Below, piece after piece: positions 43,059 through 54,037 of a stretch of DNA of 64,000 nucleotides. Positions within the stretch are counted from its first letter, which is position 1. Every line of letters begins with the position of its first letter. A program made the position numbers and the translations under genes. The DNA is from Psychrobacillus sp. NEAU-3TGS. Its GTDB lineage: Bacteria; Bacillota; Bacilli; Bacillales_A; Planococcaceae. Where the stretch lies: the NCBI RefSeq assembly GCF_029955155.1, contig NZ_JAPNOZ010000012.1:310001-374000 (forward strand). Reading direction: 5' to 3'. The notes under the pieces are model-generated. The model did no database searches. It was not told the origin of the DNA and was given only the letters and a program-made list of their open reading frames with translations.

Positions 43059-46000
43059 TTAACTATTTTGCTCTAAGCATTGATAAACGGCCATCATATC
43101 TCGCTTATTTAATTCACGAATACGATGGAAGATCGGAATATCTGCGACTGCTTTTGTATATAAGTCAGCAGCAACGACGTCCCTTACTTTTCCAGTGAGC
43201 CAAGTTGCGACAGGGGTGCCTTCGACCACTTCCTGAAGTCCTTCCTCATTGATGCCGCTTGCCTTACAGCTTACGCATGGTATCGTTAATTTAAATACGC
43301 CATCATGGAGGTTTTCTTCTGTGATGGCTTTCTTCCCTTTACAAAATGGACAGGGGTGGCTTTTTTTAATTTTATTAATTTGGGTAACTAATTTTTTATA
43401 ACCAAATGCTTCATACACATACGTCAGTTTCTTGTATTTTCCATTGGTGAAATACTTATCTATGATTGTTTCTCTTGTTTCATTAATGGTAGGAAAATCG
43501 CAGATGGTCACTTGGTTATGTTTACTGATCGATTCGATATTTTCTTTAATTGTGTCCCAGAATGGCAAGACATTTTGTAAAACTATCTCATAGCCTGTAA
43601 AACTTGCTAGCTCAAGCTCTAGTATTTTCAACGCGACTTGTGTTTCCCTAGGAAGCAATGAGACGTCTTCCGTTAATGTTGTATCCCCGCCAACTATAGT
43701 TTTCAACTTTTCTAGTTCTGGTAAGTTCCCTACTGTTTTTATCACTTGATCCAGTGGCTGCTGAATAATCTCTCGGATATCCGTGTCACCAAATGGGAGT
43801 TTTTTATGATGGTTTAACACGGTGCCATGACAAATCGGACAGGTGATTTTTTCTTTAGAATCTTTCATTTGCTCTTTAATCATTGATTTTGAAATGACCA
43901 TATACATGCCAAGAATCGTATTAAAACCTACCCACGTTCTACGCGCCTTGCCTTTCTTGTCATAAAAAGACTTTTCAAAATACCCATACCAAAACGTATG
44001 CTTTTCATCCTCCGACATTTCATTGTAGCTTTTTGTCAGATCATGACCGAGCTCATTTTTTAATTCTTCAAATATAAATTCTAACTTAGCGTATTGATAA
44101 TATTTTAATACTTCCATGACTTCCGGATATAATAATCCATCCCAAAATGGAACATTTTTGTCCTGTATCACAAGCTCTTTATCAAATATTTCAATCACTA
44201 GACGTCCCGAGCAAGATGGGCAATGATTGTCCGTAGTAAAGAAATCAAAGCTTTTCGTATCTTTATTCGTCGGATGCGATGCCACGATATGATTGATCAG
44301 ACCGCCAATTTCGTAAAGAAAACTATATTGGCTATATAAATGTCTTTCAAGGTCAATAGCAATGACAGGCGCTATTTTATTGGATTCGTATTCACTATAA
44401 ATTAAACGAGCCATGGAGGATAAGCTTTTTAAAATACCACCCTTATAGATATTTTCTGCGGTTTTAAAATAATCGATAGGCTGCTCTTCCAAATAATGAA
44501 TACCAGTTTGTTGCTTTAGTTTGGAAGAAATAGATGATGGAGTAGTGACCTCCGCTCGATTATGATGTCTATAATAATCATCATGACTAACAACTTCTAG
44601 ATGCTTCACAGGTGCAAGTTGTCTTTTACCAAAATCAACGATAAAATCAGCGTTCTCCATCATATAATCATTATGCTCAATCATCAATATAGAGACCGAT
44701 TCATCTTGTAAAATTTCCCTGACACTATCAATGAATTGGTTTAAAATATTTTGAGATAATCCTTTTGATGGCTCGTCAAATATAAAAAGTGTATGAGGAT
44801 TTCTCGAGTTAGCAAACAGCTCCGAAACTAAATGTACACATTGAAATTCTCCAGTAGATAAGGTTTGTGTTTTTCTATTTAAAGTCAAATAACCGAGGCC
44901 CAGCTTGATCAGTAAGCTTAATCGTTTATAGGCGATATCTTCACTTGGCAATTCATCAATAATATCTTCAATTGAACGCTCGAAAATATCATCCATATGC
45001 TCCTGGTATTTGGTGAGTTTCTTTTTTATATCTAGAAAAGTGGCCACAGTTGACCGACTTGTAATCGATTGGTTTCGATCTTGGCCTACCATTACTAGCT
45101 TATCTTTTGGATATCGATTCATAAAATCTTTAGCTATACACTCATTCACTAGAGTAGATTTTCCGCATCCCGACTCCCCTGTAAAGGTTACCAGTCTATT
45201 TTTCGGTATTTGAATCTCCGCTATTTGAATATTACGGCAGTATAAATCATGAAATTGATAGTAATCTGTCGGTTCTTCTGTATTTCTTTTTATATGGACA
45301 GGTTTTGGACGTGGTGATTCTTCTACAATTTTGCCACCATACTTACCACTGCCTGGACCAAAGAACAATTGCTCATCTGTTAAATCAAGCACTGTGTCAG
45401 AATGATCAATGAGCCAAATTTGATTCTTATAGCCGAGTTGTGTGATCTCTTCTAAAATTTTTTGTAATGTTTGGTGGTCGAGACCCACGGATATTTCATC
45501 AATTACAATAACCGTATTTTCACTTGTGGCCATAAATTCAGCCAAGTAAAGACGTGTTAATTCTCCACCTGACAATGTACCCATAATTCGATTTAACGTT
45601 AAATACCCAATATTCATATTAATAATGTTTTGAAGAATATTTTGCTTTCCTTCGCTTATATTTAAAACTTCTGCTTGTGAAAGAATGGACTCAATACTTA
45701 GGTTGTTGATATCGGAAATATTATGTAATTTATCGAATAATTCCGTTGTATATTGGAGGACTTCATCGTTATATCGTGTGCCATTACATGCTGGGCATTC
45801 GACGTTTTTGGTATTACCGCGTCCTTTACATTTTGGACACCAGCCTAATTCATTATTGAACGAAAACACTTCTGGAGAAAGATTAAATTTTTTGGCAAGA
45901 CACTCGCGAACTTCTGTAAAGACGCCTGTATGTGTGCCAATAGTTGAACGTGGATTGGAAGAAATAGAGGATCTCCCGAGAAAAAGTACTAATGGCATTT

Positions 46001-46229
46001 CCTCCATCTTAATAGCGCTGAAATTGGTTTCCATAATGTTGGGAAACAAATATTGATATTCAGCTTTTGGTAATAGGGAAACGAGACGCTTTTTAGATTC
46101 TTCCCCTACGGTTTGACAAAATGTTGTTTTACCAGAGCCAGACAAACCTGCAATTCCTAACGATTTATCTGTTGGTAATACTGCATCTAACCTATTTATA
46201 TTGTTCGCAATTAGTTGATTTACTTTCAT
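43059..46229 (-). CDS. UvrA-like ABC ATPase with long zinc-ribbon C-terminal extension
   Basis: A 1056-residue protein. The first half is UvrA-like: Walker A GLSGSGKTT (about 28-36), paired zinc cysteines CPKC and CPAC (131-148), ABC signature LSGGE (about 219), Walker B VIVIDEIS, then a second Walker A GESGCGKST (351-359), signature LSTGE (457) and Walker B LFIFDEPS. The core ends near residue 560, short for UvrA. The remaining ~490 residues are not UvrA sequence and carry further CxxC pairs (CPSC near 670, CPIC, CPFC and CVSC). It is not the excision repair UvrA itself, as the DNA-binding insertions are much reduced. It may act on DNA or ribosomes, or give drug self-protection like UvrA2/DrrC; unknown. 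The ATG at 46229 has a GAGGAG RBS. Single gene. Confidence 0.78.
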   Translation of the reverse strand: MKVNQLIANNINRLDAVLPTDKSLGIAGLSGSGKTTFCQTVGEESKKRLVSLLPKAEYQYLFPNIMETNFSAIKMEEMPLVLFLGRSSISSNPRSTIGTHTGVFTEVRECLAKKFNLSPEVFSFNNELGWCPKCKGRGNTKNVECPACNGTRYNDEVLQYTTELFDKLHNISDINNLSIESILSQAEVLNISEGKQNILQNIINMNIGYLTLNRIMGTLSGGELTRLYLAEFMATSENTVIVIDEISVGLDHQTLQKILEEITQLGYKNQIWLIDHSDTVLDLTDEQLFFGPGSGKYGGKIVEESPRPKPVHIKRNTEEPTDYYQFHDLYCRNIQIAEIQIPKNRLVTFTGESGCGKSTLVNECIAKDFMNRYPKDKLVMVGQDRNQSITSRSTVATFLDIKKKLTKYQEHMDDIFERSIEDIIDELPSEDIAYKRLSLLIKLGLGYLTLNRKTQTLSTGEFQCVHLVSELFANSRNPHTLFIFDEPSKGLSQNILNQFIDSVREILQDESVSILMIEHNDYMMENADFIVDFGKRQLAPVKHLEVVSHDDYYRHHNRAEVTTPSSISSKLKQQTGIHYLEEQPIDYFKTAENIYKGGILKSLSSMARLIYSEYESNKIAPVIAIDLERHLYSQYSFLYEIGGLINHIVASHPTNKDTKSFDFFTTDNHCPSCSGRLVIEIFDKELVIQDKNVPFWDGLLYPEVMEVLKYYQYAKLEFIFEELKNELGHDLTKSYNEMSEDEKHTFWYGYFEKSFYDKKGKARRTWVGFNTILGMYMVISKSMIKEQMKDSKEKITCPICHGTVLNHHKKLPFGDTDIREIIQQPLDQVIKTVGNLPELEKLKTIVGGDTTLTEDVSLLPRETQVALKILELELASFTGYEIVLQNVLPFWDTIKENIESISKHNQVTICDFPTINETRETIIDKYFTNGKYKKLTYVYEAFGYKKLVTQINKIKKSHPCPFCKGKKAITEENLHDGVFKLTIPCVSCKASGINEEGLQEVVEGTPVATWLTGKVRDVVAADLYTKAVADIPIFHRIRELNKRDMMAVYQCLEQNS

Positions 46230-46463
46230 AGTTTTCTCCTCTCTATTCGCTAAATTTAGTGTTGCCAAGCTAATAATATTTCAATTCAAAAAGCTGAAAA
46301 ATAAGAAGAGCGCCTTTCTTGTTTCAGAAATGCGCCCTTATAAACATTAATAAGGGCACAATTTTTACTGCAGAATAGACCCCTTATTTTGAAGAATGGT
46401 TTATATATATAACCATTAAGAAAATCTAAATGGTTGGTATTATAAAGGATGATGATAATATTG

Positions 46464-47204
46464 TTACTGTTCTGTTAACACTTTTTCGAGCTTTTCGCCC
46501 ATTTGCATCCAACTATATTTAGCTCCCTCGATTGCTCCCTGACGAGCTTTTGTTTCTTCACTGAAGCCAGTTTGATCGAAATGTAGATGAGTAGTACCAT
46601 CCGAATTTTTTGTCAAAGTCCATGTAACAGTAGTACTTTCTCCAGCACTTTCCCATGTATACGAAAGCAAATTTGGCTCATCCACTACTAATACTTCGCT
46701 ATTTACGATTCCATCCCACCATTCATTTGGCTCAGCTCGGAATTGAAATTTATGTCCAACAACAGGTTTGAAGTCATTTTTCCATATCCACTTTGCAAGT
46801 GTCTCCGAATCTGTTAAGGCGTTCCACACTTGTTCATTTGAACTTGTAAATTGAAAATCTAATGATACATCTGGTTTCATGTTTTGTTCCTCCAATAATA
46901 GATTTAGTTTAACCATTCTTTCTTTCCAAAAGCCTTCATAAAAAGATACCCAATCCTGAATTTCCCTTAAGGGAGCTGCATTAAGTCGATACCTCGTTTC
47001 TCTTCCAACCTTCCGAGCAATAACTAGATTCGCGTCTTTAAGAATAGTTAAATGCTTAGAAACGGCAGTACGACCCATTTCAAAATGAATCGTTATTTCA
47101 TATAGAGGTAATTCTTCAACATTTGCTAACATTTGAAGTATTTTTCGTCTTGTTGGATCAGCGACAGCTTCATAAACGTCCCGCGATTGACTTTTTTCGT
47201 CCAT
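46464..47204 (-). CDS. ArsR-type HTH / SRPBCC (AHSA1) fusion regulator
   Basis: An N-terminal ArsR winged HTH (about 1-85; VADPTRRKILQMLAN and GRTAVSKHLTILKDANLV) is fused to a C-terminal SRPBCC/AHSA1 ligand-binding domain (about 110-245; SNEQVWNALTDSETLAKW, GHKFQFRAEP, WEGAVNSE-type WWDGIVNSEVLVV, LLSYTW). It probably represses its own promoter and releases on binding a hydrophobic ligand; the ligand is unknown. The ATG at 47204 has a GGGAGGG RBS. No metal-binding cysteines typical of ArsR/SmtB sensors are seen. Monocistronic. Confidence 0.88.
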   Translation of the reverse strand: MDEKSQSRDVYEAVADPTRRKILQMLANVEELPLYEITIHFEMGRTAVSKHLTILKDANLVIARKVGRETRYRLNAAPLREIQDWVSFYEGFWKERMVKLNLLLEEQNMKPDVSLDFQFTSSNEQVWNALTDSETLAKWIWKNDFKPVVGHKFQFRAEPNEWWDGIVNSEVLVVDEPNLLSYTWESAGESTTVTWTLTKNSDGTTHLHFDQTGFSEETKARQGAIEGAKYSWMQMGEKLEKVLTEQ

Positions 47205-47265
47205 TATCCCTCCCACCTTTTTATAATTATTACCTGTAATGTCACTGATTACTCATCTTATTAAC

Positions 47266-47326
47266 ATAATAGGACACCTTTTGTTGTCTTAAAAAGATTA
47301 TAGGACACCAAATAGTGACATGTCAA
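47266..47326 (-). promoter_or_regulatory. Promoter with repeated GGTGTCCTAT element, candidate autorepressor site
   Basis: On the minus strand, TTGACA (complement of 47321-47326), an 18-base spacer and TATAAT (complement of 47297-47302). The -10 lies in GGTGTCCTATAAT, and a second copy, GGTGTCCTATTAT (complement of 47266-47278), follows 31 bases on, three helical turns. This is a likely operator for the ArsR-SRPBCC protein. Confidence 0.62.
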
Positions 47327-47420
47327 GTTACATCATTATTTCATTGCCTTGTCCTCTAAATTATGCGAATACAACATTCAACTCACTATGTTATGTCTTT
47401 ATTGCTTTTCTTAGCCAATA

Positions 47421-47457
47421 AAAAAAGCTCCCTTATACAATAATTGTAAAAGGGAGC
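47421..47457 (-). terminator. Terminator of the FMN reductase gene
   Basis: On the minus strand GCTCCCTTTTACAA pairs with TTGTATAAGGGAGC (one mismatch), then TTTTTT. It lies eight bases past the reductase stop. Confidence 0.88.
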
Positions 47458-47464
47458 AAGTTTA

Positions 47465-48007
47465 TTATACGTATTGTTTCATCCACTCTTGGAAGTTTCC
47501 GATTACTACATCTAAGAATTTGATTGTCGCTTCGTCTGTCAAATTACCTTCCACGTCAAATTTCTCGTGTGCAGCGCCAACATATACTTCGTTCATTGGT
47601 AATAGTGGTGAATTTAAGCCACTTGCGAATAAAATATCACGTAAGTGCATTTGTGCTTTTACTGTTCCTAAAACGCCCATAGAAGCACCCATAATGATAG
47701 ATGGCTTGCCGTTCATCACTTTGTCCACACGGCTCAACCAGTCAATAGCATTCCCAAGCACACCTGGAATAGATGAATTGTATTCAGGTGTTACCCAAAG
47801 TACTGCATCAGCCTCTTTTACTTTAGCTTTGAAATCAAGGACAGCTTGTGGTGCCTCTAATTCGATATCTTGGTCATACATTGGCAAATCACGTAAGCTT
47901 AATATTTCAAGCTCTAATTGATCTGCATAACGCTTTTGTACATGCTGTGCTAATTTTAAATTGAATGATTCTTTTCGAATACTACCGACGATTGCTACTA
48001 CTTTCAC
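47465..48007 (-). CDS. NADPH-dependent FMN reductase
   Basis: Flavodoxin-fold oxidoreductase (YhdA/azoreductase type) that transfers electrons from NADPH to FMN, quinones or azo compounds. The 180-residue protein opens with VVAIVGSIRKESFN, which binds the FMN phosphate, then WVTPEYNSSIPGVLGNAIDWLSR and the flavin loop IIMGASMGVLGT. The start is GTG at 48007 with a GGAGGAAAC RBS; the frame extends 11 codons upstream without one. A short dyad, ATAAACA/TGTTTAT, lies 73 bases upstream and may be its operator. Monocistronic. Confidence 0.93.
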   Translation of the reverse strand: MKVVAIVGSIRKESFNLKLAQHVQKRYADQLELEILSLRDLPMYDQDIELEAPQAVLDFKAKVKEADAVLWVTPEYNSSIPGVLGNAIDWLSRVDKVMNGKPSIIMGASMGVLGTVKAQMHLRDILFASGLNSPLLPMNEVYVGAAHEKFDVEGNLTDEATIKFLDVVIGNFQEWMKQYV

Positions 48008-48079
48008 GATTGTTTCCTCCTGGTGTCTATTTGAAGACAAATTAGTATAATATCGTTGCTTTATTTGACTTAATAAAAT

Positions 48080-48096
48080 ATAAACAACATGTTTAT
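48080..48096. promoter_or_regulatory. 7-bp inverted repeat upstream of the FMN reductase, candidate operator
   Basis: ATAAACA and TGTTTAT separated by ACA, in the promoter region of the reductase. The short spacer fits a winged-helix repressor such as a MarR or HxlR protein; none is encoded nearby. Confidence 0.4.
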
Positions 48097-48300
48097 TTTA
48101 TACTATGTCTCTTCATTTCAAAAATTATTTGCTCAATAAAGAAAGAAGTTGTCTCATACATAACTTTTTCAATTATCATGAATCCTTAAAAACTGTTTAT
48201 TCTGTAATTAGGTATTTCCTTTAAATTTGATTAAATACATTAATTTTACTAAAAAAATACTCACCAGCTTAATTAGAGCTGACGAGTATTTGACAACATA

Positions 48301-48457
48301 TTATAAAGGGAAACTTCAATCATCGGGGGGGTTCTTCAACACCCAATGATTGTTAGTTAAACCAATCGGGCGCATGCCAGCAGTTGATCTCCCTCTTATC
48401 TTTTCGCTTTTCTTACACCTTGAAGTGGGAGTCTTACTGCTTGTTAATGCGGGATTA
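48301..48457 (+). repeat. Structured intergenic repeat, copy B
   Basis: Same plan as copy A at 28143. Stem 1 is AATCAT-C-GGGG with CCC-A-ATGATT, where the sixth pair has changed from G-C to T-A (a compensatory change). The linker is TGTTAGTTAAACCAATCGGGC. Stem 2 is AGCAGT / ACTGCT plus CTCCC / GGGAG, with a G-C pair replaced by A-T. The loop keeps CTTTTCGCTTTTCTT. It ends ten bases beyond the stop of the secreted peptide gene and may act as its 3' structure. Bases 48108-48300 hold nothing else that I recognise. Confidence 0.82.
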
Positions 48458-48466
48458 ACTTAAACT

Positions 48467-48601
48467 TTATAAAAAGGAAGTGTGATCGATAGATGTAGGT
48501 CTAGGAACTTCGTCTTCTGCAAGATTAAAAGCGGATGTTGTAAAACTCAATGACAAGATCAAGGCGAAAGATAACCATATAAATACGTTTTTCTTTTTCA
48601 C
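48467..48601 (-). CDS. Putative quorum-sensing pro-peptide (Phr/NprX/PapR-like)
   Basis: A 44-residue secreted peptide, too short for usual gene calling. It starts at a GTG immediately after the stop codon of the HTH-TPR regulator, with the RBS GGGAGG eight bases ahead, inside the regulator's last codons. Residues 2-5 are KKKN, 6-23 form a hydrophobic signal helix, and a signal-peptidase-like TSA site precedes the exported part (FNLAEDEVPRPTSIDHTSFL, 25-44). This is the layout of RRNPP pro-peptides (PapR, NprX, Phr), whose last 5-10 residues are the signal. The mature form cannot be fixed; the C-terminal SIDHTSFL or a part of it is a guess. Alternative: a short secreted peptide of other function. 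Confidence 0.7.
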   Translation of the reverse strand: MKKKNVFIWLSFALILSLSFTTSAFNLAEDEVPRPTSIDHTSFL

Positions 48602-49909
48602 TTATAAATCCTCCCAATTCGTTATAAAATTTTGTTTGTATAGCATTTGAATAGCTTGCTGATAATATAAATCGGCTGCTTTAAACTTACTTTCTTTAAA
48701 GTAATAATTCGCTAGTAGAATGGAATACTTTTGAACATGCCGGTCGTCATGAATCAGTTTAAAATAGTCAATCCCTCTCTTTAATACCACTTCCAGATCA
48801 TCTATAGAAGAGTAACATGCTCTATAGATGTCTAAATGACAATAATAGGATCGATTTTCTATACTGAATTTATTCTCCAAGTTCTCGATGACCTCAAAGC
48901 CTTTCTTACACCAACTAAGGACCTCCATATGGTTATTTTGCTTAGAATATTCCTTGATAATGGAAAGTATAGATATTAAGTATCCTTCCGCATTATCATT
49001 TTCTTCTTTACTTTTCAAACTTAGCTTATAATACTCAATTGCCTTCTCTTGATTTGATTGGACTGCATATAATGAACCTATGTTTTGATAAATCATCCCT
49101 TCATAATGTGCAACTTTATAGTCTATCACCAGCTTTTTGGCTAGATTATAATTTTTCTCTGCTTCCACGTATCTTCTCATTTTTTTATGTGCTACCCCCA
49201 TAACGATGTAGCTATCAATAGCTCTTTCGAATAGGAGATTATCTTTATAGTAGCCTAACGATTTTGAAGCATGATTAATGGTGTTAAAAAATTGATTGCA
49301 TTTAAAATAAATCAAGCTGAGTACATTGTGAAAATCTGCTATTTCCCACTCTTCATTGGATACATTATTTACAAACTTCACGGAGCTCTCTAACCTGTTT
49401 AACGCTTTATAATAGTCGCCATTTAAGTAATAATACAGACCTATATTTAAATTCCCTAAAAATCTTTGTTTCTCATCAAAATCATTTTCTGATTTTATGA
49501 TCACATCAAATACGGATTGTAAAACCTCTGTCTTTTCGTTCAATATCAACATTAATCGAAACATATACAGGTTGTAAGTATAGAAATTTTTTAGTTGCAA
49601 AAAGTAACTATTTCCAATAGAGTACTTCTCCAGTATTTCTCTAATCCATTTCTTATCCCTCTGCATGATCGCTCTCTTATATTGCTCATAAAAAGCTTCA
49701 ATGAACTTCTTTTCCTCTTCGCTTGGTAATTTTTCTATTTCCAGGTTTAGCCTTTTCAGCAGGGAAGTGATCACTTCCTCGCTTGGAACAGTAGAATTAT
49801 TCTCGATCTTACTGAGATAGGAAGTAGAACAGATCCCTTTTGCCAATACTGACTGTTTGATTTGTTGGTTTAATCTCTCTTGCTTGATGGTATAACCTAT
49901 ACTACTCAT
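48602..49909 (-). CDS. HTH-TPR regulator of the RRNPP quorum-sensing family
   Basis: Cytoplasmic transcription regulator. An N-terminal XRE-type HTH (about 1-65; IGYTIKQERLNQQIKQSVLA, STSYLSKIENNSTVPSEE) is followed by about 370 residues of TPR helices with typical AHKKMRRYVEAEKNYNLAKK and IGSLYAVQSNQEKAIEYYKL repeats. That is the architecture of NprR, PlcR and AimR, which bind imported short peptides. At 435 residues it is close to NprR. The ATG at 49909 has a GGGGTGGGG RBS. A small secreted peptide gene follows with no gap, as in the plcR-papR and nprR-nprX pairs. Its targets are unknown; the divergent sigma operon at 50415 is the obvious candidate. Confidence 0.85.
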   Translation of the reverse strand: MSSIGYTIKQERLNQQIKQSVLAKGICSTSYLSKIENNSTVPSEEVITSLLKRLNLEIEKLPSEEEKKFIEAFYEQYKRAIMQRDKKWIREILEKYSIGNSYFLQLKNFYTYNLYMFRLMLILNEKTEVLQSVFDVIIKSENDFDEKQRFLGNLNIGLYYYLNGDYYKALNRLESSVKFVNNVSNEEWEIADFHNVLSLIYFKCNQFFNTINHASKSLGYYKDNLLFERAIDSYIVMGVAHKKMRRYVEAEKNYNLAKKLVIDYKVAHYEGMIYQNIGSLYAVQSNQEKAIEYYKLSLKSKEENDNAEGYLISILSIIKEYSKQNNHMEVLSWCKKGFEVIENLENKFSIENRSYYCHLDIYRACYSSIDDLEVVLKRGIDYFKLIHDDRHVQKYSILLANYYFKESKFKAADLYYQQAIQMLYKQNFITNWEDL

Positions 49910-50414
49910 TTTCCCCACCCCTTTACACTTAGTACATATATTAGTTCTTTATGAAGAGTAAGAAACCTTTAACAATCGCTCGACCTATTACGACAATAAG
50001 CATAGAAAAGGGTTCAGTGCGGTGATGAACAAGTTTAATATATAGATATGTCTGCCATCCAAAAATATTATATAATATTAAAATTTCCTTCTTTTACGAA
50101 ATTGAAAGAGTTTCAAGAAAAATAAATATAAGTAATAAATGATATTTCCCAACTTATTTTTGTTCTAAAAACGGGTATTTTTTAGTAATATTTAGGAAAG
50201 AACAATTACTTTTTACTAAATATTAATTCATCTTCATTATACCACATAGAGCAGAAAGTCCTGACAAAATTAAAAAAATTTTCAGAAAAAAAGGTTGTTA
50301 ATAACAAAATAAAATCCCCTTTATAGGACAAGATATATCTTACCCGGGAGACAACACATTATTTTTCACACGCCAAATCAGAACAAAGATTCTAATTTGT
50401 GAAGGAGTGACAAA
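49910..50414. promoter_or_regulatory. Divergent control region between the HTH-TPR regulator and the sigma operon
   Basis: 505 bases without genes. It contains several symmetric elements: TAATATTTAG (50186-50195) with its complement (50216-50225), TTGTTA-a-TAACAA (50295-50307), AAGATATATCTT (50330-50341) and CAAATcaGAA...TTCtaATTTG (50374-50399), the last directly before the RBS of the sigma gene. I could not name a convincing -35/-10 pair. These are candidate sites for the HTH-TPR regulator or for the sigma factor itself. Confidence 0.45.
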
Positions 50415-50927
50415 ATGGGTTCCGAAAAAAAGAAAATAATACAAGAATTTTTAAAATGTCCTTACAACAAAACCTTATTTGAAGAGTTCCAAACTACAAA
50501 CTCAGAAGAAACAAAACAAAAAATTGATGTGAAATTTAAAAAGTATTATCAAAACTACAGAATTCTATCCTATCTTATTAAAGTTTTGCATTATGAGAGT
50601 AAGCATTTTGATCATAAATTACGCACATATAAGCATAGGTACCAATTAATCCTTACAAATGATTTAGAAACTCCAATTTTTTTCGAGAAATCATATTCCG
50701 ATTCAATTGATTCTTCGAAAGACATTGAAGACCATATATCTAACGAAAAATTATTTACTTGTTTTAAAACACTTACGACTAGACAAAAAGAAATACTGTC
50801 ACTTGTTTATGTAAGGCAAATGACAGATAAAGAGATTGCTCAATATTTAGGGATTACTCAACAAGCTGTCTCTAAGACAAGGAAAAATGTTATAAAAAAA
50901 ATTAGAAAGGGGATTACTCATGATTGA
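50415..50927 (+). CDS. Sigma-70 family protein with region 4 (SigO/UviA-like)
   Basis: A 170-residue RNA polymerase sigma-like protein. The C-terminal third is a clear region 4 HTH (about 112-166; LTTRQKEILSLVYVRQMTDKEIAQYLGITQQAVSKTRKNV), which reads the -35 element. The N-terminal part has no recognisable region 2, so it may not bind core and the -10 box alone. This matches SigO (YvrI) of B. subtilis, which needs the separate region-2-like protein RsoA; a candidate for that partner is encoded two genes downstream. UviA-type bacteriocin sigma factors are an alternative. The RBS GAAGGAG precedes the ATG. The stop overlaps the next start. Confidence 0.78.
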   Translation: MGSEKKKIIQEFLKCPYNKTLFEEFQTTNSEETKQKIDVKFKKYYQNYRILSYLIKVLHYESKHFDHKLRTYKHRYQLILTNDLETPIFFEKSYSDSIDSSKDIEDHISNEKLFTCFKTLTTRQKEILSLVYVRQMTDKEIAQYLGITQQAVSKTRKNVIKKIRKGITHD

Positions 50928-51093
50928 TGCAGGGAACATTGTACCTTTAATCGGCAACTTTGGCTTTCCAATTGTAGTATCTATTTACTTGTTACACCGT
51001 TTTGAAAATAAAATAGAATCGCTTGAAAATGCCATCCACAACATTGAGAATGTAGTTAATAGTCGTATGGATAAAAGAAAAGGAGGTGAATAA
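50920..51093 (+). CDS. YvrJ-like one-helix membrane peptide
   Basis: A 57-residue protein, below usual ORF cut-offs. The ATG overlaps the end of the sigma gene (ATGATTGA), with AAAGGGG seven bases upstream. Residues 5-25 (GNIVPLIGNFGFPIVVSIYL) form a membrane helix, and 28-47 form a charged coiled coil (ENKIESLENAIHNIENVV). The IGNFGFPIVVSIYLL core is that of the YvrJ family, which resembles BhlA/UviB holin-like peptides. In B. subtilis yvrJ lies in the sigO-rsoA locus, as here. The stop is followed immediately by the next ATG. Its function in that system is not known. Confidence 0.75.
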   Translation: MIDAGNIVPLIGNFGFPIVVSIYLLHRFENKIESLENAIHNIENVVNSRMDKRKGGE

Positions 51094-51318
51094 ATGGACG
51101 AAACGGACATTCTCGCAATTTTAAAACAGCTAGAGCCCAAAATGCAAAGTGTTTTATTTCAAACAAGCAATGATTACAGAGAAGACTTAGAACAAGATCT
51201 AAAAGAACGTATGATTAAAATTATAAAAAATAATATCAACCTTGAAGTCCCAGGTTTTTTTGACTTCATAGGAGAAGAACAGCTGCAAGACTATTCTGGA
51301 ATGCTAACGAGGTGCTGA
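51094..51318 (+). CDS. Small sigma region-2-like protein, candidate RsoA-type partner
   Basis: A 74-residue soluble protein with no membrane helix. The sequence LEPKMQSVLFQTSNDYREDLEQDLKERMIKII has the pattern of sigma region 2.1 (an EDLxQ helix), and VPGFFDFI follows. RsoA (YvrHa) of B. subtilis is a 79-residue region-2 fragment that works with SigO; size, gene order and pattern agree. The assignment is an inference, since I cannot align it here. The RBS AAGGAGGTG overlaps the 3' end of the YvrJ-like gene, and the start directly follows its stop. A terminator lies 85 bases downstream. Confidence 0.6.
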   Translation: MDETDILAILKQLEPKMQSVLFQTSNDYREDLEQDLKERMIKIIKNNINLEVPGFFDFIGEEQLQDYSGMLTRC

Positions 51319-51402
51319 AAAAATTTTAGATTTACTATTTATTAAGTTGACTAGATCACTAGCACGAAAATTTGTCTCAAGTGCTACCCCCATTCGCAGA
51401 TG

Positions 51403-51455
51403 AACTGCACCACAGTTGTTAGTATAGACTAACGATTGATGGTGCAGTTTTTAGT
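51403..51455 (+). terminator. Terminator of the split sigma operon
   Basis: AACTGCACCA (51403-51412) pairs with TGGTGCAGTT (51440-51449), with an inner GTTAGT/ACTAAC stem, followed by TTTTTA on the plus strand. Confidence 0.85.
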
Positions 51456-51470
51456 ATCTCTATATATATT

Positions 51471-52127
51471 TCATAAACGGCTTTGAATAGTAAATTCGTT
51501 AAGTATGTGGTTAAAGTGTTTGATTTCTTTTATTATTCGATTGGGTTGCGTGATAAAGTCAGCGGTTTGATAATCTTCCAGCCACTGTACTCCAATTGTT
51601 AATAGACCTGCGGAGACCCCAGCTGCTATATCTGCTTCGCTATCTCCCACGAACATCGCATCCTCTTTGTTTACGTCGAGTAATGATAATGCTTTTATTA
51701 TCCCTTCTGGATGTGGTTTAGGATTGATGACATCATCACCTGTAATAATAACATCAAACAGACCGTCCATTTGTAGTGCTTTTAAGGAGATTTCTAGACT
51801 TCTTCTTGCTTTACCAGTGACTATACCAAGCTTATGTCCATTTTCTTTAATAGATCTCAATAATTCGTCCATCTCATTATTGGGCTCCACTAGAAGTAAA
51901 TGTTTTTCTAAATACTTTTCGTAATACAATTCAATGGCTTGTTCTTTGTTGGGATGAACAAGGTTCTCTCTGATAATACCTGTTTCTGACGGCCCGAACA
52001 TCGCTCGTATATCTTCTGGTGAGAGATTTTTATCATCAAATTCCTTAAATACACTTTGAAAGGAATAATAACAAATAGGTAAAGTATTAGCTAGAGTACC
52101 GTCAAAATCAAAAATGATTGCTTTCAT
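51471..52127 (-). CDS. HAD-superfamily hydrolase (subfamily IA, PpaX/Gph-like)
   Basis: Phosphatase of the haloacid dehalogenase superfamily; candidates are phosphoglycolate or pyrophosphate, but the substrate is not determinable. The 218-residue protein has the nucleophile motif IFDFDGTLANT (6-16), motif II IVTGKARRS, the motif III Lys in NPKPHPE, and motif IV FVGDSEADIAAGVSAG. A C1-type cap (about 15-85) is present. Intact and monocistronic; it is convergent with the sigma operon. Confidence 0.9.
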   Translation of the reverse strand: MKAIIFDFDGTLANTLPICYYSFQSVFKEFDDKNLSPEDIRAMFGPSETGIIRENLVHPNKEQAIELYYEKYLEKHLLLVEPNNEMDELLRSIKENGHKLGIVTGKARRSLEISLKALQMDGLFDVIITGDDVINPKPHPEGIIKALSLLDVNKEDAMFVGDSEADIAAGVSAGLLTIGVQWLEDYQTADFITQPNRIIKEIKHFNHILNEFTIQSRL

Positions 52128-52368
52128 TTTCTTGCCTCCTAAAATAGTATCACTTCACATCATTTTACCAAATATTCATAATTTAATATATACAATTCCT
52201 CCTCTATAAGCATACATGCGAGTTCTTGCTTTGGGAGCTTTTTTGATAACTAGAAAAGTTTTTCTGCATTTACATGCGTGTAGGCCCTTATCATTACATT
52301 AAATTCACCGAAATACGTGCTTTTACATATGGTAGAACGATACATGTGAATGAGGAGGATTATAATAA

Positions 52369-52602
52369 TTGGTTAACCCTATGCAGATGCAGCGTATTAC
52401 TATTGAACAAGCAATGCAAGTCGCAAGACGTCAAGTCCCAGGGCAAGTTATCCATGTAGATTTAGATATGGAAAACGGACTTTTAGTGTATGAAGTATTC
52501 ATTTCGACCGCTCAAGGCAGAGTATATCAAGTGGATGTCAATGCAAAAACAGGGGTAATAGTAGATATTGATCAGGAAAGTAGCACGTTTTTTAATAGAT
52601 AA
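52369..52602 (+). CDS. PepSY-domain protein
   Basis: A 77-residue protein that is almost wholly one PepSY domain: ITIEQAMQVARRQVPGQVIHVDLDMENGLLVYEVFI and VYQVDVNAKTGVIVDID. PepSY domains are thought to inhibit peptidases or sense ligands. There is no signal peptide or membrane helix, so it is probably cytoplasmic, or its real start is misjudged. The TTG at 52369 has a GAGGAGG RBS ten bases upstream; the first ATG is four codons further in. A terminator follows. Confidence 0.78.
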   Translation: MVNPMQMQRITIEQAMQVARRQVPGQVIHVDLDMENGLLVYEVFISTAQGRVYQVDVNAKTGVIVDIDQESSTFFNR

Positions 52603-52610
52603 TTTTGTAA

Positions 52611-52651
52611 AAAAATAATCCATTAGCATTTCACCTAATGGATTACTTTTT
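52611..52651. terminator. Terminator between convergent PepSY and racemase-family genes
   Basis: AATCCATTAG (52617-52626) pairs with CTAATGGATT (52635-52644), flanked by AAAAA and TTTTTT. It overlaps the stop codon of the minus-strand gene. Confidence 0.85.
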
Positions 52652-53302
52652 TGTGGTATGTAATAGATTAACTATGGTCGAGCTCAATGTATCTAATGGA
52701 TTAATAATTGTTTTCGAGATCTCGCGTTCAAGCTGTTTGGAGGCATTCACCATTGATAGTTGGGCAACGGAGATTTCTTTTTTTCCATCATCTATAATTT
52801 TACGTATGTAGCTAGAAATCATTTGGTTGTAGACTTCATTTAACCCCTGCATCAATAATTCAAAGGTTCCTTCAATCACCATAACCTCTATATTTAAGCT
52901 TTTTTGCTTTGTCTCCGCATAATCTTTCAGTCTTTTCATCGTACCCTCTACTGTATTCGGGTTAGATAGGATTACTTGAGGTTTGTCCATTTGACAAATT
53001 GCATCAAAATAAGGTTCGTCTATTTTAATAATAGGAATGGAGCAAGAAAGATCCTCTTCGTTTAATAACGCAATATAGTTTGTACAAGTAATAAGGATAG
53101 CATCGACATTGCAACTTGCTATCCATTCAATTTGTTCTTTTACTTTCTTCCTGGCCTTCAATTGGGAAAAGCTATGATCGTGTGTCACTCTATTCATAAG
53201 CCCAGGATCCACAAAATGCATTAATTCAATTTTAAAATGTGCTAAAGCACTTTCTATATAATCAATATTCGAATGATGCGCGTGCAAGCATGCTAATTTC
53301 AT
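52643..53302 (-). CDS. Asp/Glu racemase superfamily protein
   Basis: A 219-residue soluble protein with the fold pattern of the Asp/Glu/hydantoin racemase superfamily: a cysteine in AILITCTNYIALL (about residue 73) and a second region VAQLSMVNASKQL, where many members have the second cysteine but here Ser/Met occur. The missing second catalytic Cys suggests it may not be a classical racemase. Substrate unknown. It stands alone. Confidence 0.72.
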   Translation of the reverse strand: MKLACLHAHHSNIDYIESALAHFKIELMHFVDPGLMNRVTHDHSFSQLKARKKVKEQIEWIASCNVDAILITCTNYIALLNEEDLSCSIPIIKIDEPYFDAICQMDKPQVILSNPNTVEGTMKRLKDYAETKQKSLNIEVMVIEGTFELLMQGLNEVYNQMISSYIRKIIDDGKKEISVAQLSMVNASKQLEREISKTIINPLDTLSSTIVNLLHTTKK

Positions 53303-53395
53303 GTTATCTTTCCCTCTTCTTTCTTAATAGCAATGATAAAAAATATTCTTTCTTACTTATCTATACTACTTTAAAATAGCTTTGCTCCAGTTCAG

Positions 53396-54037
53396 CTAGA
53401 ACCAAGCTTCTTTCATTTTTTTCAATTTAGGAAGAGGAAGTCTTTTTTCCTCGATATGGCTTTCGCTTTCCTCATAGTTATCACTGTCATAGACATGTTT
53501 TTTATAATTAAAAGTACTATTTTTATTGACTTTCACAGATATTATTTCTTCGTTTTCCTTTAAATTTCCAATAATCGGAGTAAGCTTGTTATCCTTTATA
53601 TTTAGTTCATATAGTTTCCCACCAGTCGTTACTGACCCGTATGCGTAACCTATAATGACAAACAAACGATTTTTATCAATCCATTCAATATATTTGGGTG
53701 TATATTGACTTAGATCATTATCTTTTAACTGATAAATAGTTGTTGCCTTTGTTTTTAAATTTTCTAGAACTAGGACTGCTTCTCCTTCCTCTGTTGCAAA
53801 TTCTCCTCTTCCATCAATGGTCGCTTGTTGCAAACTATCTGATGACTTTTTCCATCCTGAATGAAAGCTGGCTTCATAATTTTTTTCTACCTTTGCGTCA
53901 AATTGTGTTGGGATATTTTCTATACCCTTACCTAAAACAGTAGGCGTAAAAAAATACTAAAAAGAAAGAAAACCAATAAAGGCAATAATCGTTATATTTC
54001 TTATTTTTTGCTTCAGCTGTTGCATAGTTTCGTTCAT
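53396..54037 (-). pseudogene. DUF4652-like membrane-anchored protein with an in-frame TAG
   Basis: The C-terminal 145 residues resemble DUF4652 domains: LSQYTPKYIEWIDKNRLFVIIGYAYG, GGKLYELNIKDNKLTPI and KKHVYDSDNYEES. Reading upstream in the same frame leads to an ATG at 54037 (MNETMQQLKQKI) followed by a membrane helix, interrupted at codon 27 by TAG (53957-53959) in the helix (GFLSF-stop-YFFTP). The original protein would have about 213 residues with a signal anchor. It may be a nonsense mutation or a base-call error. Function unknown; such proteins are probably extracytoplasmic in Bacillus. Confidence 0.72.

Follow-up and report, generated by a model that had tools for sequence, protein, structure and literature searches.

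The 64,000-nucleotide stretch of DNA from the soil bacterium Psychrobacillus analyzed here, called the window below, probably carries an NprR-type RRNPP quorum-sensing pair, composed of a receptor and a propeptide, that would control its own operon and the operon transcribed divergently from it. According to a more specific reading, for which we see about even chances, the NprR-like receptor and its pheromone of the PRPTS type act throughout the genus as a switch dedicated to the divergent SigO/RsoA-type split sigma factor with its holin-like YvrJ protein, one clade being reduced to YvrJ alone. The first-pass annotation had described an HTH-TPR regulator followed by a small ORF and had interpreted them as an RRNPP-type pair. 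Both ORFs are present and, as had not been specified, both lie on the minus strand (Table 1). The interpretation as a pair is supported by the presence of the small ORF in 18 of 18 orthologous loci, by selection on a core within its product, and by the peptide-receptor fold of the regulator.

Table 1. Features of the receptor-propeptide locus and the divergent operon; positions refer to the window.
Feature	Position	Strand	Basis
Terminator-like hairpin plus T run, downstream of the propeptide gene	48255..48291	minus	one found, shuffles mean 1.0, weak
Propeptide gene, 44 aa	48467..48601	minus	N-terminal KKK, then a hydrophobic helix, an acidic linker (EDE), the PRPTS core, and a short tail
PRPTS codons, proposed core of the mature pheromone	48491..48505	minus	conservation, pN/pS 0.15, homologous unit repeated in locus L020
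HTH-TPR receptor/regulator, NprR/Rap-like	48602..49909	minus	435 aa from ATG
Shine-Dalgarno sequence GGGAGGA of the propeptide gene	48609..48615	minus	within the regulator C-terminal WEDL codons
Divergent intergenic region, proposed control region	49910..50414		conserved blocks in alignments
TTAGTA half-site near the regulator start	49929..49934	plus	TTAGTA/TACTAA excess in 17 regions
Conserved block TTTCCCAACTTAT-N2-TT-N-TTCTAAAAA, candidate operator or promoter	50145..50171	plus	intergenic conservation
Sigma-70-family protein with region 4, SigO-like, 170 aa	50415..50927	plus	Sigma70_r4, TIGR02937
YvrJ family protein, 57 aa, holin-like PHROG match	50920..51093	plus	PF12841 2e-18, phrog_4898 2.3e-7
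RsoA-like protein, 74 aa	51094..51318	plus	NF041489 E 9.8e-8, about 32-33 bits, curated cut-off 100

The regulator resembles NprR and Rap receptors

The regulator was found in 18 of 19 Psychrobacillus genomes, the orthologs (L001-L018) showing 60-100% identity. The nearest named locus is that of Psychrobacillus lasiicapitis, with 97% identity over the regulator. An in-frame GTG at 49918 would extend the protein to 438 aa. Matches above cut-off were obtained with the profiles HTH_3, TPR_12, TPR_1, and TPR_2, and the protein, with its 435 aa and TPRs, lies inside the receptor range of RRNPP_detector, given in the accessible text as 250-500 aa with TPRs (PMC10075063). Scans of a defence library gave HTH matches alone for the regulator.

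The NprR/PlcR/AimR architecture initially proposed can be narrowed down. NprR and Rap are the fold and profile matches of the regulator, whereas PlcR and AimR match less well, and membership in either of the latter two groups was therefore rejected. In a structure comparison, residues 64-424 align with residues 67-418 of NprR, whose subfamily is built from an HTH, a 3-helix bundle, and 9 TPRs, and Rap structures are among the closest fold matches; this comparison (VIA-align) comprises the best 50 entries, and a family absent from those 50 is not thereby excluded. The best single-sequence PDB match is Rap3T (2.8e-9), and NprR was not seen among the 60 listed of 66 matches of this kind (E up to 1). 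Asn276 corresponds to the anchor Asn in both NprR and RapH and is invariant in all 38 sequences of alignment A1, which were chosen from 120 listed of 197 matches. The regulator thus combines the TPR superhelix with the conserved peptide-anchoring Asn by which RNPP/RRNPPA receptors are recognized.

The closeness of the Rap structures and the fact that NprR has both activities (PMC4970707) lead to the question of whether the regulator is Rap-like and mainly binds Spo0F or another response regulator, DNA binding being secondary. The outcome for the Spo0F-contact positions depends on the alignment used. With RapH as the reference, similar residues occupy three of the four positions, with F58 placed on F117 (F in 33/38), E137 on E189 (38/38), and Y175 on F227 (F in 31/38); at the remaining position, Q47 is matched by L106 (Q in 4/38). 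In the NprR alignment, a similar residue is found at none of the four, as D107, Y118, E188, and Y223 fall on Q105, M116, I190, and L225, none of which is conserved as such. Moreover, the regulator has an intact HTH with 13 positions that do not vary in alignment A1. We consider a primarily Rap-like function rather improbable and favor a DNA-binding peptide receptor.

A probable propeptide gene follows the receptor gene in all orthologous loci

The GTG start codon of the small ORF directly follows the TAA stop codon of the regulator gene, and the ORF has its own RBS, as described earlier (Table 1). The expectation that related genomes would have a small ORF at the same place was borne out: in each of the 18 orthologous loci a gap of 0 or 1 nt separates it from the stop codon of the regulator gene, and it is preceded by the same Shine-Dalgarno sequence, the start codon being ATG, GTG, or TTG. 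Calculated over all pairs of the 18 orthologs, pN/pS was 0.51 in frame, and reading the two alternative frames gave 1.04 and 1.28. A chance ORF was rejected because position and Shine-Dalgarno sequence are shared by 18/18 orthologs and because of the lower in-frame pN/pS.

Size and position of the 44-aa propeptide, whose gene adjoins the receptor stop codon, lie within the propeptide limits of RRNPP_detector (length 10-100 aa, distance from the receptor gene -60 to 400 bp); according to the accessible text, the signature of this program also asks for a SEC signal in the propeptide by SignalP (PMC10075063). By composition, the propeptide has a KKK start followed by a hydrophobic stretch. The TSA cleavage-like site pointed out in the first-pass annotation did not prove to be a general feature, being present among the 18 orthologs only in the window and its closest relative, and a conserved signal-peptidase cleavage site was not found among the 18 ortholog propeptides.

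A protein search with the small ORF yielded four matches of 44-45 aa, none of which is marked NCBI. A source is given for three of them, every time the single collection 'lgn', and some gene caller therefore did find the propeptide gene. The statement that the ORF is too short for standard gene calling thus holds only in part. To call the gene overlooked is nevertheless fair, since the sourced matches come from this one collection; the gene seems to be mostly unannotated. An Rfam scan of positions 46000-53500 gave no match.

The Shine-Dalgarno sequence within the last receptor codons tracks the propeptide

The Shine-Dalgarno sequence of the propeptide gene requires GAG as Glu codon of the WEDL motif. 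This codon was compared in the 72 of 84 loci with a matching C-terminus. GAG was present in 50/50 loci with a detected propeptide, and the full GGAGG in 49/50; the loci without a detected propeptide had GAA (12), CAA (7), or GAG (3). Two loci required attention, as L058 does have a propeptide with an upstream start and L023 has an early in-frame stop. The corrected counts are 51 GAG with propeptide and, without propeptide, 12 GAA, 7 CAA, and 2 GAG; in one of the CAA loci, L076, the downstream sequence ends after 105 nt, which is too short to reveal a propeptide. As a baseline, these regulators use GAG for 853 of their 3220 Glu codons (L031 and L032, duplicates of the L005/L002 loci, were dropped from the counts and kept in this baseline). 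GAG thus tracks the presence of a propeptide, which argues that the Shine-Dalgarno sequence is retained in loci that have a peptide to translate. On the tree, the loci without propeptide are L023 and two clades (7 and 13 rows), so that the counts go back to a small number of independent events.

The paralog receptor gene of L023 has kept the Shine-Dalgarno sequence, and the propeptide ORF is cut by the early stop. In one related genus, seven tandem receptor pairs were observed. A propeptide was not detected for their upstream copies (L051, L052, L053, L055, L056, L060, L061), 6/7 of which have GAA in place of GAG at the Shine-Dalgarno sequence, and these copies are candidate eavesdropper receptors.

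PRPTS as proposed core of the pheromone

The first reading had envisaged a variable tail at a conserved locus. The ORF is kept in 18/18 orthologs, but the tail is not simply variable, as it contains a P-R-x-T core that is invariant in all 18. In PRPTS, the first P, the R, the T, and the preceding E-x-E are invariant in 18/18 orthologs, the second P and the S in 16/18, and the five codons have a pN/pS of 0.15 (18 orthologs, all pairs). In L020, which belongs to the Psychrobacillus paralog receptor group, the propeptide has 96 aa and contains five tandem DKP[DE]ITS units, with the helix not being repeated; that stretch is therefore the unit that matters. Tandem pheromones are known in RRNPPA systems, as stated in the accessible text of two studies (PMC9765709, PMC11343458).

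Cores of this type are also found in two further receptor groups: KP[KEDS]IT in 11/12 members of the paralog receptor group (L020-L030, L068), L023 being broken, and P[RK]IT in 7/7 of L034-L040, which come from a second genus of the family. Differing cores (PRPVI, PRPIV, PGPKS) are seen in the remaining loci of that second genus. The pattern P[RKEDS][PILV][TV], which was written after inspecting the peptides, is present in 41 of 52 distinct adjacent propeptides, many of them from close relatives, compared to a mean of 1.3 and a maximum of 6 in 500 tail shuffles; 11/52 do not contain it. When the tree is read by eye, the propeptide cores group with the receptor clades; the tree label 'nopep' is also carried by L067, L078, L079, and L085, whose propeptide candidate is further off. 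Near more distant receptors, in L067 and L085, propeptide-like ORFs with repeats were noticed (four PLDEVP[ED]IA, three IPIHPPIG). The paralog receptors L022, L026, L020, and L024 sit between ABC-exporter-like ORFs (by eye, four loci).

Some of the data would also suit a small membrane protein, e.g., a toxin or a receptor partner, that is co-expressed with the HTH-TPR regulator and is not a pheromone precursor. The helix half of the small protein is constrained about like the whole tail (pN/pS 0.52 vs. 0.48) and in one clade more strongly (0.17 vs. 0.57), the orthologs share no signal-peptidase site, and AF2 modeled the peptide alone (43 residues, first left out, no alignment) as one long helix, residues 3-30, with a low-confidence tail. 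Over all 18 orthologs, however, the PRPTS core is the most constrained stretch tested, and it is the core unit, not the helix, that is repeated five times in L020. As the cores also group with the receptor clades and the receptor fold is that of peptide receptors, we regard a membrane protein as highly improbable and the product of the small ORF as a probable pheromone precursor.

The divergent operon is the likeliest target

The assignments within the divergent operon differ in strength. YvrJ reaches 66.1 bits with PF12841 (cut-off 29.5). The sigma protein matches Sigma70_r4, but its TIGR02937 match spans residues 36-165. The RsoA-like match stays under the cut-off of 100 in the genome search, too. 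A second sigma/RsoA-like pair was found in the same genome (G000:C13:148480-149308), with an RsoA match of 46 bits that is stronger than that in the window. A search with the sigma protein gave 20 matches, the six named ones being from Psychrobacillus (5) and Bacillus sp. FJAT-22090 (1); the locus of the latter falls within the same genus group as the Psychrobacillus loci.

In 18/18 regulator-bearing Psychrobacillus genomes, yvrJ divergently adjoins the regulator gene. The sigma-yvrJ-RsoA-like triple is present there in the same order in 11/18 genomes and yvrJ alone in seven, three of which (G001, G014, G016) hold a more distant triple elsewhere. For Psychrobacillus loci with 18 kb context, yvrJ lies beside the regulator gene in 16/16 and the sigma and RsoA-like genes in 9/16. 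In G004, the sole genome of 19 without the regulator, neither yvrJ nor an RsoA-like gene was matched at E 0.001, and the sigma matches were weak and generic (E 1e-6 and 2e-4). Beside 14 regulators from outside the genus (L033-L046) and 12 paralog regulators (L019-L030) with usable flanks, the yvrJ operon was not found; the small upstream flanks of L047-L086 carry no information on yvrJ. The link between regulator and yvrJ is confined to the genus.

Conserved blocks became visible when the intergenic regions of 10 sigma-type and 7 yvrJ-only loci were aligned. TTTCCCAA is present in 15/17 regions, with 16 occurrences compared to a mean of 0.8 and a maximum of 4 in 100 shuffles. When up to 3 mismatches were allowed, the main block of the window was not found a second time in the genome (control 0). 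TTAGTA/TACTAA occurs 46 times in the 17 regions (mean 11.8, maximum 23 in 100 shuffles), and in the 7 yvrJ-only loci the palindrome GAATTAGTA-N3-TACTAATTC is located at the TTAGTA site. The commonest 8-mers reach 15/17 regions compared to at most 13 in 50 shuffles, and the commonest 7-mers do not exceed the shuffled regions in frequency (17 vs. up to 17). As the loci are related, shuffles overstate the significance of these differences. A sigma-70 promoter scan remained at chance level (11 found, shuffles 11.6), and a possible autoregulated sigma promoter pattern was uninformative (3 matches vs. 1 in the control). The intergenic conservation and the genome-unique block suggest, at the level of sequence, that the regulator is local and dedicated.

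Instead, the pair could be a genuine RRNPP system with targets elsewhere, for which the sigma/yvrJ operon is just a passive neighbor. The restriction of the yvrJ association to one genus and the 505-bp gap between the start codons are compatible with such a situation, and the closest species keeps most of the tested neighbors as well (15/16 in L087). The yvrJ gene was found in 16/16 genus loci with 18-kb context, and in 6/16 it is the only survivor of the 16 neighbor ORFs tested. This, the joint absence of regulator, yvrJ, and RsoA-like gene from G004, and the conserved intergenic blocks with the main one unique in the genome argue against a passive neighbor, which we judge to be possible, though on the unlikely side. 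We infer that the divergent sigma/yvrJ operon is the likeliest target of the signal.

Other neighboring genes were rejected as conserved targets. An FMN reductase gene is located beside the regulator gene in 2/16 loci. The ArsR-AHSA1 and UvrA-like genes lie on the same side as the FMN reductase gene in these 2/16 loci; in 2 additional loci they are found on the opposite side at a distance of 5-8 kb. In the window, the former of these (46464-47216, minus strand) encodes an ArsR-type HTH fused to an AHSA1 domain; next to it, a 1069-aa protein, UvrA-like by eye, is encoded at 43059-46268 (minus strand).

Proposed mechanism and significance

We infer the following sequence of events. One mRNA would carry receptor and propeptide, the latter being translated from the Shine-Dalgarno sequence within the last receptor codons. 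The N-terminal helix would export the propeptide, which would be cleaved outside the cell. A short peptide around PRPTS(I) would then be re-imported, probably via an Opp permease; the genome contains 16 matches to SBP_bac_5 (Opp-type binding protein). Inside the cell, it would bind to the TPR superhelix on its concave side, close to Asn276, and alter DNA binding of the receptor at the divergent intergenic region. By analogy with NprR, the peptide is expected to switch DNA binding on. In this way the receptor could control both the operon that encodes it and, in the opposite direction, the yvrJ or sigma-yvrJ-RsoA-like operon.

RRNPP or NprR together with Psychrobacillus was not found in the openly licensed PMC papers searched, and the accessible text of such papers linked RsoA and quorum sensing only for pneumococcal competence and dormant B. 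subtilis. With RRNPP_detector, 21 new candidate subfamilies were reported, and none of five related taxon names was found in the accessible main text (PMC10075063). The Psychrobacillus pair may already be listed in the data set of this program, and the sigma/yvrJ link may be the part that is new.

The pair would represent a new receptor-pheromone lineage in Psychrobacillus with a core that can be synthesized at once (candidate forms PRPTS, VPRPTSI, PRPTSIDHTSFL). The 52 distinct adjacent propeptides with several core families, together with the propeptide-less receptors, are a data set for the co-change of pheromones and receptors. Should the divergent operon prove to be the target, density sensing would be coupled to a split sigma factor, and the role of YvrJ could be tested by peptide addition. 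An RRNPP system would then act via a two-subunit sigma factor, and the YvrJ family would be placed under a known signal.

Comparison with known systems

PlcR-PapR and AimR-AimP resemble the pair in having an HTH-TPR receptor with a small propeptide gene nearby. The likeness to NprR-NprX of the Bacillus cereus group goes further and includes the HTH with a Rap/NprR-like helical and TPR domain, the conserved Asn, a propeptide with a hydrophobic start, and a proline-containing core. Mature NprX is given as SKPDIVG in the accessible text (PMC5641580), and a [KR]-P or P-[KR] core is therefore shared in outline. SKPDIVG itself was not encountered, the cores being PRPTS in the window, KPDITS/KPKITS in the paralog group, and PRPIVG in L048. 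In our alignment, the NprX-contact residues W167, H201, N306, and D309 of NprR fall on Y166, K203, G309, and I312, so that the peptide contacts must differ from those in NprR. Further differences are the identity of about 18% over the aligned structure and the divergent sigma/yvrJ operon beside the Psychrobacillus pair.

Rap-Phr systems likewise have short Arg-containing pheromones, as in phage Rap3T (SRGHTS) and the Rap of phi105 (ERPVGT), and tandem pheromones are known there. Unlike the regulator, Rap proteins have no HTH, and D194 of RapF, which anchors the Phr Arg, falls on a variable Lys (K243) in our alignment.

With respect to the divergent operon, the accessible text describes a B. 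subtilis sigma factor that is divided between SigO (region 4) and RsoA (region 2) and transcribes oxdC-yvrL, yvrJ, and its own operon (PMC8103513). A sigma-region-4 protein, an RsoA-like protein, and YvrJ are thus found in one gene group in both cases, but here the order is sigma-yvrJ-RsoA, the group lies beside an RRNPP pair, and the RsoA match is below the curated cut-off. Induction of an alternative sigma factor by an RRNPP receptor has a precedent in streptococcal ComRS, which is reported to act on sigma-X. ComR belongs to a different receptor subfamily, and sigma-X is a one-piece sigma factor.
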